In this document: piece after piece, positions 15,738-43,600 of the stretch | Position numbering within the stretch: position 1 is the stretch's first letter | Layout of the letters: the number at the start of each line of letters is the position of its first letter | Origin: Sedimentisphaera salicampi | GTDB lineage: Bacteria > Planctomycetota > Phycisphaerae > Sedimentisphaerales > Sedimentisphaeraceae | Direction: 5' to 3' | DNA length: 64,000 nt | Assembly (NCBI RefSeq): GCF_002117005.1 | Contig: NZ_CP021023.1 | Location: 2,838,995 to 2,902,994 of the forward strand | Notes under the pieces: model-generated | The model's database searches: none | Seen by the model: only the letters and a program-made list of their open reading frames with translations | Told to the model about the DNA's origin: nothing | Made by a program: the position numbers and the translations under genes

Positions 15738-17366
15738 TTACATCTTATAGGGTGTGGTATCTGCGCTCAGATTAACTGTTTTGTAGAGTTTCCTTGCGTC
15801 CTCGTTAATCTTTGATGGCAGCACATATTTGCATTCGCTTTTCTTATCCCAGAGGATGCTAAGCTGCACGTGGTTTAGCGCATTTACCATTCTTGCCACA
15901 GACATCGCCTCGAATCTTAGCCTAACCCTGTATGCCAGATTCCTCGCGCAGGTTAGAGCGATAAAGCATATCAGTATATGGGCTTTGATTCGTTTCGGTG
16001 TCCAGTGATATATCGGCCGTATCTTCAGCTCGTGCTTGCTGATCCTGAAGCACTCCTCAATTAGCCAGAGCTGCTTGTAATGCTCTACTACTGCCGAATC
16101 ATCCATATCCTTAACATTCGTTATAACGCCGTGAAGGCCATCAAATTTCGCTGCCTGAGCATATTTCTCTTCATTTATCTCGCAGTTTACCTCGCCGGTA
16201 ACTCGCATAAATTTCTTGTAGCCGTAGTTGCTTATAAGGGATTTGGGGTTACTGCTCTTTTCAAGCTTCTCACGAAGTTTTCTTATAGCTTCGTCCCTGT
16301 CGTGTTTATTCTTTTTGGCGAGCTTGTCGCTGTAGGTAACAATTAGCCTTCTGTTCTTGCCGTAATCAAAGCTTCTGAGAGGAGCAACGGATTCTGTAAT
16401 CTTTGCTTTCCATTGATCAGTGAGGCTTTTTAGCCTCGCTGCTACGATATATTCCACTTTCTGCTCTTCAAGGTAATCCAGATTAGCCTTGCTCAGCATT
16501 GCGCTGTCTGCGGTAAATATAACACGCTTGAGGTTGTATTTCTCTTTGATCTTAGGAATAACAGTGTGCAGAGTATGCCCTTCATACTGATTGCCGGGGA
16601 ACACCTCATAACCAACTGGAAGCCCCTCTGATGTTGAGAGAAGGCCAAGCACAACCTGCGGCTGATTGAACTTCATATCCTTGCTGTAGCCGTTCTTTTT
16701 GAGCTCATCTTCTGTAAATGATTCAAAATAGAGGGTGGTGCAGTCGTAAAACAGAAGGTTTATCTCTTCGCCTAAAAGCCCTTTAGCAGCCTTGTGAGCG
16801 TGGTTTTGAGCCTTGCTGATAATATCATCTGTGATGTTGTCCATCATCCTGTAAACGCTGTCAAGAGAGAGACTGATGCCGAAGTCTTTAGATAGATCCT
16901 GAACACTGCCTCGCTTACTGACCGGATTTGCAAGCCTTGCCATGGTAATGTGGCGAAGGTTTCTGCGAGCAGCCTCTTTGCGTTTATCAAAAAGATTGTT
17001 AAATCCGAGCTCGTCATAGATGCTTCCGAACACCTCATGGATGCCGGTGGTGATGCGTGCCTGCTCCTTAATATCCTTCAGATTTACGTTTATAGGCTCA
17101 TCATCGATCTTTTTGCGGGCTTCTATAGCAGCCTCTGCAAGCTGCTCAGGCTTGAAAAGTGCCGGCGTTATCTCCGCCTCAAGTTTAGCCTTCTCGAATT
17201 CGGCGAGATCTTTGAGACGGGTAACATCCTCTTCTGTGAAGGCAGTGCCCATATGACGTACTATACGCTGGCGAGGCTGATTCTTCTCGTTGCGATAGCT
17301 CGCAACAATCTGAACAGATCTCTTTGGGCTGTTTTTTGATTTTTTTACTCGTATAAACATAAACAC
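15738..17366 (-). CDS. IS1634-family DDE transposase
   Basis: The 542-residue protein begins with the family-typical SVQIVASYRNEKNQPRQRIV stretch. DDE catalytic residues are recognisable in FYDCTTLYFES (first Asp), IFTADSAMLSK (second Asp) and YKQLWLIEECFRISKHEL (Glu in a YREK-like context), followed by a long helical C-terminus. It moves the element by cut-and-paste or replicative transposition. Length is normal, and no frameshift or stop is present. It fills most of the IS, leaving about 100 bases at its 3' side and 140 at its 5' side. Confidence 0.93.
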   Translation of the reverse strand: MFMFIRVKKSKNSPKRSVQIVASYRNEKNQPRQRIVRHMGTAFTEEDVTRLKDLAEFEKAKLEAEITPALFKPEQLAEAAIEARKKIDDEPINVNLKDIKEQARITTGIHEVFGSIYDELGFNNLFDKRKEAARRNLRHITMARLANPVSKRGSVQDLSKDFGISLSLDSVYRMMDNITDDIISKAQNHAHKAAKGLLGEEINLLFYDCTTLYFESFTEDELKKNGYSKDMKFNQPQVVLGLLSTSEGLPVGYEVFPGNQYEGHTLHTVIPKIKEKYNLKRVIFTADSAMLSKANLDYLEEQKVEYIVAARLKSLTDQWKAKITESVAPLRSFDYGKNRRLIVTYSDKLAKKNKHDRDEAIRKLREKLEKSSNPKSLISNYGYKKFMRVTGEVNCEINEEKYAQAAKFDGLHGVITNVKDMDDSAVVEHYKQLWLIEECFRISKHELKIRPIYHWTPKRIKAHILICFIALTCARNLAYRVRLRFEAMSVARMVNALNHVQLSILWDKKSECKYVLPSKINEDARKLYKTVNLSADTTPYKM

Positions 17367-22627: not shown

Positions 22628-23599
22628 TTATCCGCTCCAGAGTACCTCATTGGGCGTCCGATAGTTTAAGCATTTCCTTGGTCTATTATTGATTAAGGAG
22701 ACTGCTTTGTCAATTTCTGCTTTGCTTACTTTCTTAAAATCAGTACCTTTTGGAAAAAACTGACGCAGCAGTCCGTTGGTATTTTCGTTCGTACCACGCT
22801 GATATGAGCTGTACGGATCAGCAAAGCAGCAGCATAGACCGACCATTCTTTCCATCTCCTTAAATCCGCCAAATTCCTTGCCGTTATCAACCGTTAGCGT
22901 CTTTCGTTTGAACTTAGGAATTTTCCTGAATATTCTCTTGGTAGTAACGTTCATACTGGCTGCACTCTTGTCATCCATTTTACCGACCAGCAGGTAGCGG
23001 GTTTTCCGCTCTACATGGGTGGCAACAAACGAACCGTGCCCCTTGCCACTTACGGTATCACCTTCCCAGTCGCCAATGCGGCTGCGTTTATCAACAACAG
23101 CCGGACGTTCACTGATCGGAGCTCTCTCCGGTATCCGGCCACGTTTGTCGCTGCTGCCGTGTTTCTTTCTCCTTTTACGATGCCCTTGCCTCAAATACTT
23201 ATAATAATCGCCGCCAGCAGCTTTATCTCTCTTTATCCAACTATATATAGTTAAATGACTTACGCGCATTTCCTGCTCGTAGGGATAATCAATTTTAAGG
23301 CGAGCGGCTATCTGCTCGGGCGAGTGATATTGCTCAAGTTTATTGATTACAAGCCGGCACAATCGGCCGTTCTGCTCCAAGCGATAAGGCTGTTTGGATG
23401 CGGTTCTGCGTTTGTTATAATATCGAGAGGCAAGGTGTGGTTTGTAATCCCCGGTTGAAGAGACATTGCGACTCAATTCTCGACTTATCGTGCCCTTGTT
23501 TCTGCCGAGATATTCGGCAATCTGAGATAAATTTTTTCCTTTTGCCTGCATTTTTAGTATGCATTCTCTTTCGTTGATGTTAAGATGTTTGTAGCCCAT
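22628..23599 (-). CDS. IS30-family transposase
   Basis: The 323-residue protein has the N-terminal IS30 helix-turn-helix (YKHLNINERECIL...LSQIAEYLGRNKGTISREL) and the catalytic DDE core: GDWEGDTV (Asp), LTVDNGKEF (Asp) and RGTNENTNGLLRQFFPKG (Glu). It ends with the family NNRPRKCLNYRTPNEV. Length is typical and the frame is intact. It is one of two transposases within 8 kb. I could not define the element's terminal repeats reliably. Confidence 0.95.
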   Translation of the reverse strand: MGYKHLNINERECILKMQAKGKNLSQIAEYLGRNKGTISRELSRNVSSTGDYKPHLASRYYNKRRTASKQPYRLEQNGRLCRLVINKLEQYHSPEQIAARLKIDYPYEQEMRVSHLTIYSWIKRDKAAGGDYYKYLRQGHRKRRKKHGSSDKRGRIPERAPISERPAVVDKRSRIGDWEGDTVSGKGHGSFVATHVERKTRYLLVGKMDDKSAASMNVTTKRIFRKIPKFKRKTLTVDNGKEFGGFKEMERMVGLCCCFADPYSSYQRGTNENTNGLLRQFFPKGTDFKKVSKAEIDKAVSLINNRPRKCLNYRTPNEVLWSG

Positions 23600-31518: not shown

Positions 31519-31998
31519 GTGCGCCAAGCAAAGCTAATATGTGCAAGCCGGACAATCCGGCACGGGTAAAGGCTAACCACCAGCCCGGGACTGAACCGGA
31601 CGTATTGCGAGGTAACGAGTAATGCGAAGCTTCGGTAAGGGCAGTTTGTCAGCCGTAACGCAAGTGAAGGTATCGAGCCCCGAAATAATCCTTATTTCAC
31701 TGGGTCAAGGGTTTCATTTCTTGGAAACCAGTATCGATGCGCACGTTAAAGGTGAGTGCGTAATCGACGTGGCGGGGTCTAAGTCCGCAGCGGGCAAACA
31801 AACTGTACATATTGGAACTTGGGAGAACCGAAGCGTTCCGAAAGGAAGCCGCCAAATAGCCGAAAAAGTGATGAGGCGGTATGGCGTTTCGGTAGTCGGA
31901 CTAACCCATAGTAGAGGTGTAGCAGGGGTAATGCCCTGTGGGGCTATAAGCTTACTCGAAGGGGTTAGCGGTTTAACGCAGAGAGGTGAATTTTAACA

Positions 31999-33330
31999 AT
32001 GCAATACCCTGAGATTGGAAAAACTTTGGAGAAGTTGCTTCTCATATCCGCTCGCGCCCGAAGGGAACGAGGATTCAAGTTTACGAGCCTTGCTCATCTA
32101 CTTGATGAAGAATACCTTCGGGATTGCTACCAGAACCTTAACCGGAATAAGGCGGTAGGAATTGACAATGTAAGCTGGCAGGAATATGGTATAAATCTGG
32201 ATGAAAATCTCCGGCGGCTTGTCGATAGGCTCAAACGTAAAAAGTATAAGCCTAAACCGGCAAGGCGGGTATATATACCCAAGGACGATAAAGAAACCCG
32301 TCCACTGGGTATATCTGCGATAGAAAGCAAGATAGTAGAAAGCGGGATTGCCCGCATACTAAACTGCATATATGAGCAGGATTTTCTGGATTGTTCTTAC
32401 GGTTTTCGCCCGAACAGGAACTGTCATCAGGCGTTAAAGACACTTAACGACCTGATAACATACCAGCCGGTAAACCATATTGTCGAAGCCGATATTAAAG
32501 GCTTCTTCGATAATGTTGACCACGATAAGCTGCTGGAGTTTATTCGAATAAGGATAAATGACACGGCATTATTAGGGCTGATTGGTAAGTTTCTCAAAGC
32601 CGGTTATGTTGACGATGGTCAACTAATAGTATCGCAAAAGGGTACTCCGCAAGGAAGTATTCTAAGCCCGATACTGGCGAATATATTCCTGCACTATGTA
32701 CTGGACGAGTGGTTTGAGGCTACGGTTAAAAGCCATACGACCGGTTACTGTGAGCTTGTGAGATATGCGGATGATTTTGTATGCGTAGTTCGCTACGCAG
32801 ACGATGCCGAACGCATTGAGCAGGCGTTGAAGAATAGGTTCAATAAATACGGATTGGAAATACATCCTACAAAGAGCCGCCGGATAACATTTGGTCGCTT
32901 TGAGAAGGAAAACGCCGTAAAAGAGAGCCGAAAGCCTAACACGTTTGACTTTTTAGGATTTACGCATTACTGCGACATCTCACGCCGAGGCAAATTTAAG
33001 CTCGGGCGTAAGACAAGCGGAAAGAAATTCTCTGCCAAGTGCAGGGAGATGAATGACTGGCTCAAGGCGATACGAAACCACGTCAAGACTAAAGACTGGT
33101 GGAAAGTTCTTGTTGCCAAACTGCGAGGCCATTATCAGTATTACGGCGTAAGTGAGAACTACGCCGGTATCAGGAGTTTTTACAAACTCACGATAAGGAT
33201 GGTACGGAAATGGCTGAACAGGCGTAGCCAAAAGCGAAAGATGAGTTGGGAACGGTTTAGTAATTACCTTGAACACTATCCTTTGCCAAAACCCGAAATA
33301 GTGCATAGCTTTTACAATCGGCAAGTGTAA
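31999..33330 (+). CDS. Group II intron reverse transcriptase/maturase
   Basis: The 443-residue LtrA-type protein supports splicing and retrotransposition of its host intron. RT motifs are present: RPLGISAIESKIVE, YGFRPNRNCHQAL, EADIKGFFDNVDH, GTPQGSILSPILANIFL, the catalytic RYADDFVCV, and TFDFLGFTHY. A basic maturase (X) domain follows. The C-terminus ends at HSFYNRQV without an HNH endonuclease, so mobility probably uses nicked or single-stranded targets. GAGAGG precedes the ATG. No frameshift is present, so it is likely functional. Confidence 0.95.
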   Translation: MQYPEIGKTLEKLLLISARARRERGFKFTSLAHLLDEEYLRDCYQNLNRNKAVGIDNVSWQEYGINLDENLRRLVDRLKRKKYKPKPARRVYIPKDDKETRPLGISAIESKIVESGIARILNCIYEQDFLDCSYGFRPNRNCHQALKTLNDLITYQPVNHIVEADIKGFFDNVDHDKLLEFIRIRINDTALLGLIGKFLKAGYVDDGQLIVSQKGTPQGSILSPILANIFLHYVLDEWFEATVKSHTTGYCELVRYADDFVCVVRYADDAERIEQALKNRFNKYGLEIHPTKSRRITFGRFEKENAVKESRKPNTFDFLGFTHYCDISRRGKFKLGRKTSGKKFSAKCREMNDWLKAIRNHVKTKDWWKVLVAKLRGHYQYYGVSENYAGIRSFYKLTIRMVRKWLNRRSQKRKMSWERFSNYLEHYPLPKPEIVHSFYNRQV

Positions 33331-33346
33331 AGTGAGTTAAACCGAA

Positions 33347-33379
33347 GAGCCGGATGTGGGAAATCCACAAGTCCGGTTC
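33347..33379 (+). ncRNA. Group II intron domain V
   Basis: GAGCCGG pairs with CCGGTTC, with the catalytic AGC triad at 33348-33350. A bulge and a second helix TGTGG/CCACA closed by a GAAAT loop complete the hairpin. This is the catalytic core element of the ribozyme. Confidence 0.88.
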
Positions 33380-33452
33380 TGTGAGGGGCATTGACGTTTC
33401 CTCACATTTAATAAATGAAAAAATTAAGTTTATGGATGAAAGGAACTATATT

Positions 33453-35363
33453 ATGTCTACTCGACAAAATCTGAAAAGTATAGATAAATTTATGGCCATC
33501 CCGCTGAGGGATATAGTTTTTATTATCATTATTCTTATACCGTTTATTCTCGGTAAATACTGCGAATTCAATATCCCCGGGCCATTTGACAGCGGTTCAA
33601 ACGTGTATTCAGCGAAGCACATCCTTGAAGGGGCTCAGATCGGCGTTGAAGAAGACCCAAGCGCTCAGGTGGGTACGCTGCTTATGAATATGCTGGGGGT
33701 AAAGCTTTTCGGCTTCAATGATTTAGGCCCTAAGATAGTGCAGGGTTTCTTTCAGCTTATCGGCCTCGGGTTAATGTATTACAGCATCAGGCGAGTTTTC
33801 GGCGTTTTGCCGGCATTCTTTTCCGCCTTCGCTGCCGCCTTTTTCCTCTCAGCCCCGCTTATAGCAAAATACGGCAACGTAAAAGAGCAGTTTATGACGG
33901 CCTTTATGCTCGCTGGAATTGCCCTGTTTGTCCTTCATCTGAAAACAGATAAACGAATTTTTGCAGTATTGGCAGGGGGCTTTCTTGCATGGGCTCCTCT
34001 TTTCAAGATTACAGGCTTCTCGGCGATTGGGGCATTAGCAGTGTTTTTCGCGTGCAGTCTGATTTTCAAATGGAAAACATTCAAGGAGCTTTTGATAAAG
34101 GCGGGGCTTCTGCTGGCGGGGTTTCTGATATTTGCAGGCCCGGTATGGATATGGATAAATGCCTCCGGCGCACAAATCAGCACGCCGTATAAATCAGCAT
34201 TAGTTCGAGTTATGCCGGATTTCAGCTCTAAAGACAGCCCTGTGCCGGAGAATCAGAAGCATTCAGGAGAGACGCAGAAGAAGGCTGATTCTGAGAAAAA
34301 AGAGGAATCTGCCGGCAGCTATGTAGAGCGAACCAGAAAGGCCCGGAGCTACAGTGAACATGCCCCCGTTGTGCTGCGATACTACCGCCTGCTTATCCTG
34401 CCTGTCGGCTTGGCGATAGCGGCGCTGATTTTGGCAAAAATCCGGTTTCTCAGGACGTGGCTTGCAAAAAAGAGCAAAATCCGTCTCACACTCCCCGATA
34501 GGGTTACCGTTCTGCTTGTTTTCTGGTGGGTTCTGGATATGGCTCTTGTTTGGGTGAGCACGCGCCCCTATGAGCAGTATTACATACCGCTGACTGCCTC
34601 CGGAGCTTTCGCTGGGGCATATGTGCTTTATCGCCTCTTCGGCTGGTGCAGAAGCAAAGGAATGCGGTTTACTCTCGGCGGCTTTGCTTTCTCGGCAGTT
34701 CTCTTCTGGATATTCTGCTCGCCGATATTTGCAGGGATAAGCAAAAGCCCATACAGCGGCAAATCCTACGGCGAAGGCGTTAAACGAAAAGGATATGTAC
34801 AGCGAATCGAGCAGGCAAGTATGCACCGCCAAGGCAGGATTGCACCTTGGGAGATTGTCGGGCTGTTTATAAAAAACAACACCTCCCCAGACCAGCGCAC
34901 CTACGTTTGGGGCTGGTATCCCGGGATTTATGTCAAGGCCCAGAGGCTTTCAGTATGCAAAAAGGCCTTCCAGAGCGATATGCACACACTGCCCCCCTCA
35001 ACTCTTGAAAAGATGGCTGAGAATTTCATCCGCCAGTTTGAAAAGCACAAGCCCAAATATATAGTGGATTCCCGCAAGAGGCACTTCCCGCACGACCGCC
35101 CGCCGCTGGAATTCTGGCCTTCCACCCCTAACGGCTTCCTCCCTGCAAACGAAAGGGCGGTTCAAGGCTACGAAAAAGCTTATTCAAACATCCTGGCAGA
35201 GAGAATAGAGCCCGAAGAGGCTGAGCGGTTTAAGGCGTTCGCTGAGCTGAGAGAATATATAAGAGAAAACTATCAAATCGTAGATAAAGACGGCTATCAA
35301 TTCACAAAAGCAGGCCCACGAAGCAAACGTTTCGGGCAGATGGTTGTTTTCAGGAGAGAGTAA
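33453..35363 (+). CDS. GT-C type (family 39-like) membrane glycosyltransferase
   Basis: The 636-residue protein has roughly ten TM helices in the N-terminal 430 residues and a soluble C-terminal part. The layout and the early acidic motif FDSGSNVYSAKHILEG resemble polyprenyl-phosphate-sugar glycosyltransferases of the ArnT/PMT (GT39, GT83) group, which use lipid-linked sugars on the outer face of the membrane. A charged loop (about 265-310, KHSGETQKKADSEKKEE) interrupts the helices. I choose ATG 33453 because GAAAGGA lies about 9 bases upstream; an in-frame ATG at 33432 is possible, and the longer frame runs into the intron. Acceptor unknown. Confidence 0.72.
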   Translation: MSTRQNLKSIDKFMAIPLRDIVFIIIILIPFILGKYCEFNIPGPFDSGSNVYSAKHILEGAQIGVEEDPSAQVGTLLMNMLGVKLFGFNDLGPKIVQGFFQLIGLGLMYYSIRRVFGVLPAFFSAFAAAFFLSAPLIAKYGNVKEQFMTAFMLAGIALFVLHLKTDKRIFAVLAGGFLAWAPLFKITGFSAIGALAVFFACSLIFKWKTFKELLIKAGLLLAGFLIFAGPVWIWINASGAQISTPYKSALVRVMPDFSSKDSPVPENQKHSGETQKKADSEKKEESAGSYVERTRKARSYSEHAPVVLRYYRLLILPVGLAIAALILAKIRFLRTWLAKKSKIRLTLPDRVTVLLVFWWVLDMALVWVSTRPYEQYYIPLTASGAFAGAYVLYRLFGWCRSKGMRFTLGGFAFSAVLFWIFCSPIFAGISKSPYSGKSYGEGVKRKGYVQRIEQASMHRQGRIAPWEIVGLFIKNNTSPDQRTYVWGWYPGIYVKAQRLSVCKKAFQSDMHTLPPSTLEKMAENFIRQFEKHKPKYIVDSRKRHFPHDRPPLEFWPSTPNGFLPANERAVQGYEKAYSNILAERIEPEEAERFKAFAELREYIRENYQIVDKDGYQFTKAGPRSKRFGQMVVFRRE

Positions 35364-38499: not shown

Positions 38500-39696
38500 A
38501 TGTCCGAAAATTATTATACTCTTGAACAAGCCGCTGAAAAACTCGGAAAAACCCAGGAGCAGCTTAAAGAGTTAGCTAAGGTTAACGACATCAGCGAAAT
38601 GAGGGACGGCTCCAAGATTTTCTATAAAAAAGAAGATATTGATTCACTTGCCAAGCAGCAGGTTGATGATGATAATCTCAATGTTGAAGATTCCGTAATT
38701 GGTCTTGATGAAGAAAGCTCGCTTGGCGGGATTGATTCGCTTGATGATGAGAAATCTGACGAAGATCAAGGTGAGGAAGTTAATATTGATGAAGATATGG
38801 AGCAGATGATCGAGCTTTCTGATGCCGATACAGCAGTGGGTATGGACTCTCCTGATTCGGATTCTGATGAATCTGAGGGTAAGGAAAAGGAAGATGATGC
38901 AAGCTTCTCCGACGACAGCCTGCTCTCTCTGGCTGATACGATCTCCAGCGAGGAGGAAAGCAAGGGCTCTGCGCAGCAGGATGAAGAAAGCTCTAAGCAG
39001 CAGGGTTCTGAGGAAGAAGGGCAGGAACAGCAGCAGAGTTCGCAAGACCAGCAGGGCGAGCAGCAGATAGATGCAGATGCGGATATGGGCTCAGATGAGG
39101 AGGGTTCAGGAATTTTAGACTTGTCCCTTCAGGCGGATGATTCCCAGCTTGGTGCTGTTCTTGATGATATTCTCCCGGGAGCCGAAGGCGGCGGAGGAGA
39201 CGACGATTTCGACGATTTCGATGTAGGCTCTCTTGAGGAAGCAGAACAGCAGGATCAGCAGCAGACCGAACAAGAACAGCCCCCTCAGCCGGAAGAGGCA
39301 GAGACAGAGCAGACCCCCGCACAGGATGATTTGAGCTATCCGGAAGTAGAGCCGGAGCCGGAACCGGCCGCTGCAAGTGCTCCAGCCGCCGCTGCGGCAG
39401 CCTCATCAGCAGAAGAAGGCACCAGCTTCGGTTTTGCAATGCTTCTGCCTTTCATCGCAGTGGTTATGACGCTTGTGATACTTGCAGGTGTAGCTGTTAA
39501 TGGCTCAGAGCCGCTCTTTGTCCCCTTCGTTCAGCAGTACTTTGTATATATTGCAGGCGGCCTTGCCTTGGTTACTTTTATAATAGGTATTTCTGGTGCT
39601 TTCTCCGGAGGCTCGTCAAGCGGTAAAAAATCCAGCGGCAAGAAGTCTTCTAAGAAAGAAAAGAAAGCCAAGAGCAAGAAGAAGAAAAAGAAATAA
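38500..39696 (+). CDS. MerR-like HTH, acidic linker and two-TM protein with polylysine tail
   Basis: The protein has four visible parts. Residues 1-55 form an excisionase/MerR-like helix-turn-helix (YYTLEQAAEKLGKTQEQLKE...KIFYKKEDIDSLA). Residues 60-310 are strongly acidic and low-complexity (Asp, Glu, Ser, Gln). Residues about 315-370 contain two TM helices (MLLPFIAVVMTLVILAGVAV and YIAGGLALVTFIIGISGAF). The end is a run of Ser/Lys (KKSSGKKSSKKEKK). HTH proteins with long acidic linkers and C-terminal TM helices occur in planctomycetes, but their role is not known to me. The two-TM hairpin would put both the HTH and the Lys tail in the cytoplasm. The next gene is an OmpA-like lipoprotein 73 bases downstream. 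Confidence 0.8.
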   Translation: MSENYYTLEQAAEKLGKTQEQLKELAKVNDISEMRDGSKIFYKKEDIDSLAKQQVDDDNLNVEDSVIGLDEESSLGGIDSLDDEKSDEDQGEEVNIDEDMEQMIELSDADTAVGMDSPDSDSDESEGKEKEDDASFSDDSLLSLADTISSEEESKGSAQQDEESSKQQGSEEEGQEQQQSSQDQQGEQQIDADADMGSDEEGSGILDLSLQADDSQLGAVLDDILPGAEGGGGDDDFDDFDVGSLEEAEQQDQQQTEQEQPPQPEEAETEQTPAQDDLSYPEVEPEPEPAAASAPAAAAAASSAEEGTSFGFAMLLPFIAVVMTLVILAGVAVNGSEPLFVPFVQQYFVYIAGGLALVTFIIGISGAFSGGSSSGKKSSGKKSSKKEKKAKSKKKKKK

Positions 39697-39769
39697 TTAG
39701 CGAAAGTTTGCTTCGGAATTGATTGCGAAGCTTTCGTCTTCTGAATTTGTAGATAAGAGAGGTTGCTCA

Positions 39770-40543
39770 ATGAAGTATGGTATAATAACGGTTTTAGCTG
39801 CGTTTGCTTTTATGCTTAGCGGATGCGTATCACAAGGGGCGTACGACAGCCTTAAAATGAAGAATGAGACCCAGAGCCAGAGGATCTCAGAGCTTGAATC
39901 CAAATATAATTCTGCCAAGCTCGAGCTCAAGCAGCTCAGGGAGAAGCTCGAAACTGCAAGAGAGCTTGAAAACGCAGGTGAGCAGGCCGCTCAGGAAGAA
40001 ATAAAACTTCTTGAAGAAGCCCTCAAAGAGAAAAATGAGCTTGTTAAAAAGCTTCAGAAACAGCTTCTCGAAGGCGGGGTTAAGCTCCCGGCAGAGCTGA
40101 ATGTGATGCTTGAGGAGTTTGCTTCGGCCAATCCTGATCTCGTTACTTTCGACTCCGAGCGAGGCGTTGTTAAATTCAAGAGCGATCTTACCTTCTCTCC
40201 CGGCAGTGATAACATAAATTCTGAGGCTAAAAATGCTATCGCTAAATTCTGCGGGATTGTTAAGTCCGATCAGGCTGAGAAGTTTGATATAGTTATCGCC
40301 GGCCATACCGACGATATGAAGATTTCAAAGCCTTCTACCAAGCGTGAGCATCCTACAAACTGGCATCTTTCGGCTCACAGGGCAATCTCTGTTCTTCAGA
40401 GTATGCTTAATGAGAGCGTAAGCCCGGAGAGGCTCAGTGTGCGAGGTTATGGCGAATACAGGCCTGTCGCACCTAATAAGCCCAATAATGGCGGAAATGT
40501 TAAGAACAGGCGTGTGGAAATCTATATAGTGCCCCAAGGCTGA
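39770..40543 (+). CDS. OmpA-family peptidoglycan-binding lipoprotein
   Basis: The start at ATG 39770 gives a lipoprotein signal with lipobox LSGC (Cys about 19). A coiled-coil follows (about 30-110, leucine heptads with SELESKYNSAKLELKQLREKL). The C-terminal OmpA/MotB domain (about 130-257) has FSPGSDNINSEA, VIAGHTDD and LSVRGYGEYRPVAPN. OmpA domains bind peptidoglycan diaminopimelate, and the coiled coil would bridge envelope layers, as in Pal-like or OmpA-like anchors. The longer in-frame start at 39719 would hide the lipobox and is rejected. A strong terminator follows. Confidence 0.92.
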   Translation: MKYGIITVLAAFAFMLSGCVSQGAYDSLKMKNETQSQRISELESKYNSAKLELKQLREKLETARELENAGEQAAQEEIKLLEEALKEKNELVKKLQKQLLEGGVKLPAELNVMLEEFASANPDLVTFDSERGVVKFKSDLTFSPGSDNINSEAKNAIAKFCGIVKSDQAEKFDIVIAGHTDDMKISKPSTKREHPTNWHLSAHRAISVLQSMLNESVSPERLSVRGYGEYRPVAPNKPNNGGNVKNRRVEIYIVPQG

Positions 40544-40582: not shown

Positions 40583-40616
40583 AACCCTTCCTTCAGATAA
40601 ACGGGAAGGGTTTTTT
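40583..40616 (+). terminator. Intrinsic terminator of the OmpA lipoprotein gene
   Basis: AACCCTTCC (40583-40591) pairs with GGAAGGGTT (40604-40612), then TTTT. It overlaps the stop codon of the convergent AsmA-like gene. Confidence 0.9.
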
Positions 40617-43600
40617 AATGGGGTATTCCAAAGGTTCGAGTCTTTATGGAGGGTTCAGATAAAGGCCCTTTAACCTGCACCTCGGCTATTAGCTTCCCGA
40701 TGGTGTTGAGCAGCTTTCCCCGAAGCGTTTCATCTTCAAACATAAACACCTGAAGACTCAAATCAAGCTTCTGGTTTTCAAGATTCATTTCACCCGCCCC
40801 TTGGAGCTTGAGACTTTCAAGCTGAATCACAGCATCAGATATAACCAGCCTGTCTTTGATTATATAGCCGCTGATTAGCCCGGTTTTGATTCTCTTCTCT
40901 GCCGGCTGTCTTGAAAACACCGCAGAAACAATCCTTGAGATAAGATTCTTTGATGTGATCTGGCTGTTCTTGAGAACTATATCGAGCCGTCCTTTTCTGA
41001 ATTCTTGCCTGCCTGCTACACCTTCCACGCTGAGCTGCGATGAGAGCATACCGGAAAGTGCGAGCCGTCCGTTTTTCTCCTCAACGGTGTCATTGAGAAG
41101 CTCACTGATATTAACATTGTTCAGATCGAGGGAGAAATCATATGCAGGCGGGGCATCTCCGGAAGGCATAAGGCGGTAATTAAAGCTTGCTGCCCCGCCG
41201 TAAAGGCTTGCCGAACCCTTCTCCGGAGAGGAAATTGCCCCGAGGGAGTAGTTAAAGCTTTGAGATACTTCTTTGAAGGCAGCTCCTTTGTAGAGCAGGC
41301 GGCTGCAGTAAAGATCTGCTTGAGCCTTTTGGAGCTCAAGGTTTTTGCTTAGATTGCAGCTTCCCGTTAGATTTCCTTCAGCAGAATGGGCTTCTTTGAT
41401 CCAGCCGGTTGATAAATCCTTAAATTCTAAGCGGAAGTTTTCGATGTCTATGTCTTCCTTCTCGCTGCTGAATTCAAGCCCTTCAAGCCTAAAATCAGCT
41501 TTCCCGCTGAATCCTGATAAATCTTTAAATTCGGCATTGCTCAGATTAACTGATTCTGCTGTAATATTATTTAAGGAATCAAGTTTCCCCTCTTCATATT
41601 TCACTCTGCCGTCTGCTTTGATTGATGCTTCAGGCAAATCCACGCTTTTCCCGCTTACCGAGTAGTTGAAAGCAGCGGGTTTATTCGTACCTGCCTTTAT
41701 ATCAACCGTTCCTGAAACATCTTCAAGCTTCAGCCCGTCTATTTCGGCCGTGTTATTCTGCAGCTCTGCCAGAGCTGTGATCTGGAGCGGCTTATCCTGC
41801 CCGGAGGAAAAATCTGCATCAATCCCGAGCTTGCCTTTAAGAAAGCTTTTATAATCTTCGCCAAGCAGCTCCAGACACCTCCCTGCCTCCAAATTCTCGC
41901 ACGAAAGCTCTCCCTCAAAGCCGCCGAGGCTTTTGTTCACTATTTCCCCGCCTGCTTTGGCAGTGAAGCTTCCGCCTGCAATCTCGGCTTTGATCATCTC
42001 TGCTCTCCAGCTTCCTTTCCCGGCTCTTATCTTCATTTGCGGGTCAGTGATTGTGAGCATACTTGGTTTGTAAACGATCTCATTTCCTGATATATCAGCA
42101 TCAAGATTCCAATCATTTTCTCTGTTTTCCTTGCTGAGCTCAAGCGTAAGTGTGCTTTGAGCATCTATGTAGAAATCATCCAGCATTCGGGCTGGGTCTT
42201 TGGGCAGAGAGCTGATTAGTACGCTGTCCAAGGTGAGCCCCTTGGCGAAAACTTCAAGGTCGTAATCAGGTTCGTTCAAAAGAGCATTTTCAATTGTGCC
42301 GCTGATGTTGAAGTTGGAATCGCCGGCAGTCCCTCTTATATCGGTTAGCGTTATTTCTTCGGGATTTACATTTATATCCCCTGTGATAGAACTTGCAGGC
42401 AGCGGGAACTTGCTCAGCTCAGCCTGAGCATTTTTTAGGTTTATATCGATAAGGTATCTCTTGCCTTTTTCGTTCCGCAGATACTGATATGTAAAGGCCA
42501 TTTCTCCTGAAGGATTTATCATATTCCAGATTTTCTTGAGCCTGGCGTCAAGGCTTTTGTAAACATCGTGGTTTATATAAGCCTCATTGGAATGAATTAT
42601 TATATCGCAGTTTGGATAATCCGGCAGACTTGTGCATTTAATATCGTGCCAGCCAGTGATTTTTGCTTCCTGATCTTTATGCGTGCATTTCAAGTCGAAT
42701 CGGTATTTTTCTGAGCTTAAGTCTATCTTACCGCTCACCTTAACCTCATAAGGGAAAAAAACGTAGCTTGCAGTCATTTTCTGCGGTCTTATTTCGCCTC
42801 TCATTTTCGGTTTTTGTGAAAGGCTTCCCCAAAGCTTAACCTCCGAATCCATTCTACCTTCCGGATTGAATTCTTTCAGGAAAGTTGTTGTACCCTTGCC
42901 TATAAAGCTGTAGAGTTTTTCATTCTCGTAAACCGCATTCACTTTTGTGATGGAGGAAAGCAGAATATTTTCAGTCTTCAAAGATAATCTGTAAGGAGCG
43001 TTCTTCTTTGAAAGATCAGCAGAACCTTCTGCTTCGATCTCAGTTTTGCTGGTTGAGGCATTAAATTTGAATCTAACAGGTCTGCTGGGCTTCCAGCTGG
43101 CATCAAGGCTTAGATCTTTGGTCATCCATTCGCTGCCGAACAGGCTGGCGTTCAAGTTCCCAGCCACGCGAATAAATCCTCTTTTTCCCGCTTTAATTTC
43201 TGCGTTTAGAAATGATGCCCCGAAAGCGGCGCCGGCAGGTGTATTGAGCATAATCTTATATGTATTATCACTGCCTTTTGAAGAAAGCTTAAGGCTGCTC
43301 AGGATAATATCCCCTTTATCAGGACTTTTGATTGCCACCCTCCCAGTCTCCAAATCAGGAAAACTGCCAGACTTGAATATGCTGTAAAAAGGGTGCGAGC
43401 TTATATTTTCAATGAAGTTTACAAATCTTGGATAAGCGTTCTGCGGGTCAGTTTCTGCTGAACCCGGTTTATAAATCATCACCTTTTCTGCTGTTATTTT
43501 CTCAATTGAAGGAGAAAGGAACCCATTTTCAAAAAGGGAGTAATCAACGACTGCCTTCCCCGCCGAGAAATTGAACTGTGAAGCCGATCCTTCCAGCCCG

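Follow-up and report, generated by a model that had tools for sequence, protein, structure and literature searches.

CbpM binds the J-domain of CbpA and is soluble, with neither a linker nor a membrane anchor. The N-terminal helix-turn-helix (HTH) domain of RodZ binds MreB (PMC6946637) and the HTH of SepH binds FtsZ (PMC7968930), and the two proteins provide a precedent for the HTH as an adaptor. Domains of the RacA and Par types insert helix 2 into the major groove (PMC11500499). RodZ has been reported to be absent from Planctomycetes (PMC5147048). Cell shape and division without FtsZ in Planctomycetota still await an explanation. Here we describe a gene unit of this phylum that joins an HTH membrane protein, OmpA-like lipoproteins and a small exported protein. 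We found no description of such a unit in the titles, abstract openings and passages covered by our literature search, a coverage that most subscription journals fall outside.

The window (the whole stretch of 64,000 nucleotides of Sedimentisphaera DNA that was analyzed) contains two of these genes in a row, HTH gene first, on the same strand and separated by a 73 bp gap according to the sequence and the ORF list. The features of the pair are:

38500..39696, + strand: gene for the membrane-anchored HTH protein, 398 aa (ORF, Pfam scan, homologue search, AlphaFold2)
38509..38661, + strand: MerR/Xis-like winged HTH, about residues 4-54, with an acidic recognition helix at residues 19-28 (Pfam, charge, AlphaFold2, fold comparison)
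38662..39423, + strand: acidic linker, about residues 55-308, predicted disordered (composition, AlphaFold2)
38812..38841, + strand: first conserved linker site, ELSDADTAVG, with near-invariant Asp110-Thr111 (alignment)
39103..39177, + strand: near-invariant linker motif, residues 202-226, GSGILDLSLQADDSQLGAVLDDILP (alignment, pairwise identity)
39424..39501, + strand: transmembrane helix 1, residues 309-334 (AlphaFold2)
39520..39615, + strand: transmembrane helix 2, residues 341-372 (AlphaFold2)
39616..39693, + strand: lysine-rich C-terminal tail, residues 373-398, predicted cytoplasmic on the topology proposed below (composition)
39770..40543, + strand: gene for the OmpA-like lipoprotein, 257 aa from its own ATG (ORF, Pfam, homologue search, AlphaFold2)
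39770..39826, + strand: lipoprotein signal peptide with lipobox Cys19 (sequence, alignment)
39833..40069, + strand: long helix or coiled-coil spacer, residues 22-100 (AlphaFold2)
40142..40534, + strand: OmpA-like peptidoglycan-binding domain of the MotB type, residues 125-255 (Pfam, structure comparisons)
40583..40617, + strand: inverted repeat with a T run, a likely terminator (by eye; its loop is outside the limit of the scan)

The upstream neighbor of the pair is a sulfatase gene (Pfam E 5e-38) running in the opposite direction. Downstream, an AsmA-like gene (a weak match, E 8e-5) converges on the pair, and the inverted repeat lies between them. No tol genes were recognized by eye among the neighbors. 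Elsewhere in the window there is a group II intron at 31552-33465 (+), with Rfam matches RF02005 at 31552-31787 and RF00029 at 33345-33465 and a reverse transcriptase ORF at 31999-33330 (+; Pfam RVT_1, E 1.8e-36). Transposase-like ORFs at 22628-23599 (−) and 15738-17366 (−) look by eye like the IS30 and IS1634/IS4 kinds, respectively.

The sequence-only reading had described the first gene product as an HTH head, an acidic linker, two membrane helices and a polylysine tail in one protein, and the ORF, its composition and the AlphaFold2 model confirmed this architecture. Residues 1-60 were well predicted as a winged HTH (block pLDDT 80-96), and the Pfam matches of the protein were HTH_17 and MerR_1. 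Against a cut-off of 27, HTH_17 scored 27.3 bits when the genome was searched and 22.9 bits (E 1e-4) when the protein was scanned over its whole length. Absent from these matches were the XRE-type HTH_25 found in RodZ and, at E up to 1, the DUF3071 of SepH. Fold comparison matched the head to Xis (4j2n), RacA (5i44), BldC (6ama), SoxR, CarH and CbpM (3ucs); the Z scores for RacA with DNA (7.0), BldC with DNA (7.0) and CbpM (7.2) are middling, and DNA-bound RacA, BldC and SoxR were tied with other entries. By sequence profile and by fold, the head is a MerR-like winged HTH.

As a control for the charge of this head we took 26 other HTH_17 domains, encoded in the window's genome or in one of nine additional planctomycete genomes; these were what remained of 30 fetched loci once two family members (L220, L221) and two weak matches (L211, L230) were removed. 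The net charge of the domain was −2.57 in the HTH family (n = 51, range −6 to 1) versus +4.46 in the control (n = 26, of which L219 and L229 are identical, range −1 to 9; Mann-Whitney p 4e-12), and that of the recognition helix was −1.7 versus +1.2 in the same two sets. Helix 2 most commonly read T/S-E-E/D-E-I/V-K. The mean domain charge was −1.43 across a distant sample of 76 further HTH loci outside the class, which were chosen irrespective of linkage. Canonical DNA-binding HTH_17 or excisionase domains have a basic or neutral recognition helix on a positive domain, and the head examined here has neither property. With an acidic recognition helix and a negative net charge, it is unlikely to bind DNA in the standard way, although some DNA contact is possible because the wing keeps basic residues (R35 in 37/51, K39 in 29/51 and K43 in 42/51). 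It had been suggested from the sequence that DNA might be what the protein ties to the envelope; a lack of DNA-binding residues was named there as a refuting condition, and the charge data leave DNA contact by the head disfavored, and the HTH family appears to have shifted from DNA to protein binding.

Residues 53-308 of the linker (256 aa) contain 85 Asp and Glu and 5 Lys and Arg, and the region is unfolded in the AlphaFold2 model. The linker is nevertheless more than an acidic stretch, as it contains a near-invariant motif. GSG..LDL...D..LGA was kept in 51/51 aligned HTH proteins (window + 50 loci; alignments A1 and A2, with eight of the 59 relatives' regions left out). Residues 202-226 had a mean pairwise identity of 84%, whereas the HTH reached 50%, the membrane part 30% and the flanking stretches of the linker 33% and 20%. 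The Asp110-Thr111 site was likewise invariant or nearly so. When the window's own genome was searched by profile, the HTH protein was the sole match. The motif was also present in 78/79 proteins of a set of named genomes, which is no independent evidence because that set was found through the motif itself. A 25-residue near-invariant stretch in a disordered acidic chain resembles a docking motif and may serve as one. We considered whether it folds onto the HTH and rejected the idea, as AlphaFold2 left the motif unfolded at low confidence (pLDDT about 50-55). In three HTH genes of family f33 (L196, L197 and L200), the acidic linkers consist of DSGISL and SDSDVKLV repeats and so differ from those of the order with their single motif.

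The tail of the window's protein has 15 Lys in its last 26 residues, and at least eight Lys or Arg occur in the last 30 residues of 46/51 members of the order-level set. By the positive-inside rule, both ends of the hairpin protein are probably cytoplasmic, and on the model the hairpin would expose merely a short loop outside the membrane. We read the protein best as an inner-membrane adaptor because both ends would then be cytoplasmic and hardly any part of it periplasmic. Members from other orders of the class keep the motif and two helices, and those whose sequences were read have no lysine tail. Distant members typically have a single membrane helix (71/76) and a short C-terminus, and no basic tail was seen in the single-helix forms examined. 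As the tail is missing from both groups, it is unlikely to represent the ancestral function; judged from the sequences, it looks like a late addition.

The next gene had been read as encoding an OmpA lipoprotein with a coiled coil, and this also held up: the product has a lipobox at Cys19, a coiled-coil-type helix at residues 22-100 and an OmpA domain (Pfam E 5e-17) within a model of mean pLDDT 82.8. MotB, MotS and TssL were closest to the domain, and the protein scored below every NCBIfam cut-off among the 25 matches listed. Gly18 and Cys19 were invariant in an alignment of 49 OmpA sequences, as were T180, D181, S201 and R204, the TD...LS..R residues that we take to mark peptidoglycan binding by OmpA domains. 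Domain, residues and lipobox together identify a predicted peptidoglycan-binding lipoprotein. None of the 49 sequences has Asp after the lipobox Cys; under the enteric rule, the lack of Asp at this position directs a lipoprotein to the outer membrane. The window's genome encodes a second OmpA lipoprotein of 224 aa (L317, 6071-6745; Pfam E 2.8e-21) with a coiled-coil-like stretch of its own, possibly an ordinary Pal. In several genomes (L070, L074, L182 and L188), a second OmpA gene directly follows the first in tandem.

Conservation of the pair was examined in 59 relatives, the window's own genome included; those with names are Phycisphaerae and Sedimentisphaerales metagenome bins. Both queries matched 59/59 genomes, with a strong OmpA orthologue in 58/59, and the two genes lay on the same strand within 8 kb in 48/59, one of these pairs (G034) being counted as linked although its starts are 5.6 kb apart. 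Occurrence of the pair is far beyond chance. Linkage was complete in families f1, f2, f3, f4 and f6 (45/45), 3/13 in f7, where nine genomes had the genes unlinked and one had no strong OmpA orthologue, and 0/1 in f5. Judged from coordinates, it was 0/18 in Phycisphaerae of other orders and 0/10 in members of family f33. Linkage reappears farther away. In a scan of 244 Planctomycetota genomes, 156 matched the HTH profile and 186 the OmpA profile, the latter at E 1e-20, and 14 distant linked pairs were first seen from coordinates. Among the 69 distant loci with enough sequence, 34 had an OmpA gene downstream of the HTH gene in the same orientation, mostly within 300 bp, and OmpA followed the HTH gene in 56/73 testable loci of the named-genome set. 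The proposal of a cytoplasmic head anchored at the envelope and coupled in function to the lipoprotein is supported by this linkage well beyond Phycisphaerae, whereas a direct physical bridge between the two is not, the hairpin loop being short.

A third gene, encoding a small exported protein, is part of the unit elsewhere, and the unit is therefore larger than the pair. It lay directly upstream of the HTH gene in 63/74 testable distant loci (the 76 minus one without a usable HTH ORF and one that was too short), a count to be read with the fact that its profile was built from 35 of these very loci; the wider genome checks were separate. It was also upstream in 12 of the 14 distant linked cases, in 21/47 testable loci of the order and in one of six loci (L196-L201) kept outside the 76, one of which comes from the same genome as L327. 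Among 20 genomes with the third gene that were used as a prediction test, the HTH gene followed it in 15 and OmpA in 12, four of the 20 (G125, G093, G182 and G137) having been picked partly for a visible nearby OmpA match. Seventeen of these genomes were negative with the first HTH profile, and 12 of them had an HTH gene after the third gene. Across the 244 genomes, 128 had both genes, 28 the HTH gene only, 53 the third gene only and 35 neither. This co-occurrence is positive but modest (odds ratio 3.0, p 2.5e-4), in part owing to members that escape the profiles. At E 0.001, 34/59 relatives had no match to the third gene, among them the window's genome and the two genomes nearest to it.

The third protein has an N-terminal hydrophobic segment with an AxA site in 38/53 and a lipobox-like motif in 0/53 sequences, followed by a short domain in which Tyr71 and Arg89 are invariant in the alignment. 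It belonged to no known family at Pfam or NCBIfam cut-offs, and a profile search of solved structures returned nothing below E 0.29. The gene was already present as cluster 3 (17 loci) in a first-pass clustering of neighbors at about 80 loci and was recognized on a directed look. That clustering gave no other conserved partner, and a wider conserved operon was rejected; it did contain ndk (19 loci) and a ligase-like gene (13 loci) in the order, both named by eye. The anatomy of the proteins and the phylum-wide occurrence of the unit are solid.

We tentatively favor a reading in which the pair is the remnant, in the window's genome, of a three-part envelope module of Planctomycetota, and the HTH product is a membrane-tethered protein adaptor. 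The full module would run from the small exported protein through the HTH membrane protein to one or two OmpA lipoproteins. The HTH protein would be an inner-membrane protein with a cytoplasmic head, a MerR-type winged-helix fold reused as a protein-binding adaptor in the manner of RodZ or SepH. The acidic linker may act as a flexible tether whose short linear motifs reach a second partner, so that head and linker motif would each bind a cytoplasmic protein. At the same place the lipoprotein would join the outer membrane and the wall, with its 80-residue helix as a spacer; in genomes that encode the exported protein, this protein would lie in between. Acting together in this way, the products could bring a cytoplasmic machine to the envelope or set its position there, possibly one for growth or division. 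A bolder version, which we consider quite doubtful, makes the module a trans-envelope scaffold specific to Planctomycetota that replaces organizers of the RodZ or divisome type, with the linker motif docking a division or growth component not yet seen.

The most serious competitor, itself unlikely in our judgment, holds that the HTH, the lysine-rich tail or both hold the chromosome to the inner membrane at an envelope site marked by the lipoprotein. The fold matches to RacA (5i44) and BldC (6ama) on DNA and the basic residues of the wing are in its favor, as is RocS, in which a MerR-type winged HTH is joined to a membrane anchor (PMC11500499). DNA tethering by the tail in particular is possible: its composition resembles that of the PAKK/KAAK tail required by HupB to bind DNA (PMC5676037). 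The negative charge of the recognition helix and the whole domain, distant members included, argues against this reading, and so does the distribution of the tail. That the HTH protein and the lipoprotein have no joint function, an orphan HTH-like protein merely lying beside a Pal-type lipoprotein, would fit the lineages in which the pair is unlinked and the second OmpA lipoprotein elsewhere in the genome. Linkage and the third gene recur in distant lineages, for which we estimate a chance of about 1% or less, and coincidence thus seems very unlikely. We give equally little credence to an envelope-stress sensor in which the lipoprotein and the exported protein read the state of the wall or outer membrane and the HTH acts on transcription from the membrane. 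A membrane-bound HTH with exported and peptidoglycan-binding products in one unit would suit such a sensor, but the periplasmic part of the HTH protein is very short, its recognition helix is acidic, and Pfam and NCBIfam scans of it revealed no recognizable signaling domain.

A substitute for RodZ, in which the head would link MreB to wall synthesis by binding it and the lipoprotein would report on or fix the wall, is no more probable in our view than the trans-envelope scaffold. FtsZ/tubulin was not found in 12/12 genomes tested and MreB was found in all 12, as well as in 228/244 genomes at E 1e-90; the HTH_25 match in a search for RodZ in the window's own genome was a cupin regulator. With FtsZ not found, RodZ reported missing and MreB present, there is room for an unfamiliar organizer, but the FtsZ-less setting is context and no evidence for the module reading. 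In one genome (G065), HTH, OmpA, OmpA, a 98-aa gene and mreB stand in one row; on its contig C418 (L318, 941-6582) the order is lgt, the small exported protein, HTH, OmpA, OmpA, the 98-aa membrane protein and mreB. This was the only case of the HTH gene together with mreB among the matches listed, and a single case is near the chance expectation of about 0.2 that we estimate for about 150 genomes. Moreover, of 15 genomes in which no MreB match reached E 1e-90 (G007 was left out, its mreB being split), 12 have the HTH gene. MreB as the HTH partner is not supported: the G065 row is striking, but it failed the gene-neighborhood test across the phylum. The three-part module with a protein adaptor remains our preferred reading, and a unit kept across the phylum, with a predicted part for every compartment of the envelope and a putative docking motif under strict conservation, is a concrete and testable candidate for the question of shape and division without FtsZ.

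Compared with known systems, the lipoprotein resembles Pal and YiaD in its lipobox and MotB in the type of its OmpA-like domain; it differs from them in its 80-residue helical spacer and in having an HTH gene upstream in place of tol or mot genes. For the HTH protein, CbpM offers a MerR-like fold used as a protein-binding module and solved with the J-domain of CbpA (3ucs). RacA and RocS share an N-terminal MerR-type winged HTH on a protein that reaches the membrane, but they bind DNA through helix 2 (PMC11500499), which is acidic here, and their coiled coil contrasts with an acidic, disordered linker and a transmembrane anchor. SepH likewise has an HTH followed by an unstructured region, and its HTH binds a cytoskeletal protein (PMC7968930); it appears to differ in its N-terminal family, DUF3071, and differs in its partner FtsZ and in that the published passages on it report no membrane helices. 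RodZ shares the cytoplasmic N-terminal HTH, which is protein-binding in RodZ, the linker and the inner-membrane helix (PMC6946637). Its HTH is of the XRE type (HTH_25), however, whereas the fold of the window's protein is of the MerR/Xis type. Unlike RodZ, the latter combines an acidic linker of about 250 residues carrying conserved motifs with two helices, a lysine tail and no periplasmic domain, and its gene is linked to that of an OmpA lipoprotein and, elsewhere, to that of an exported protein.
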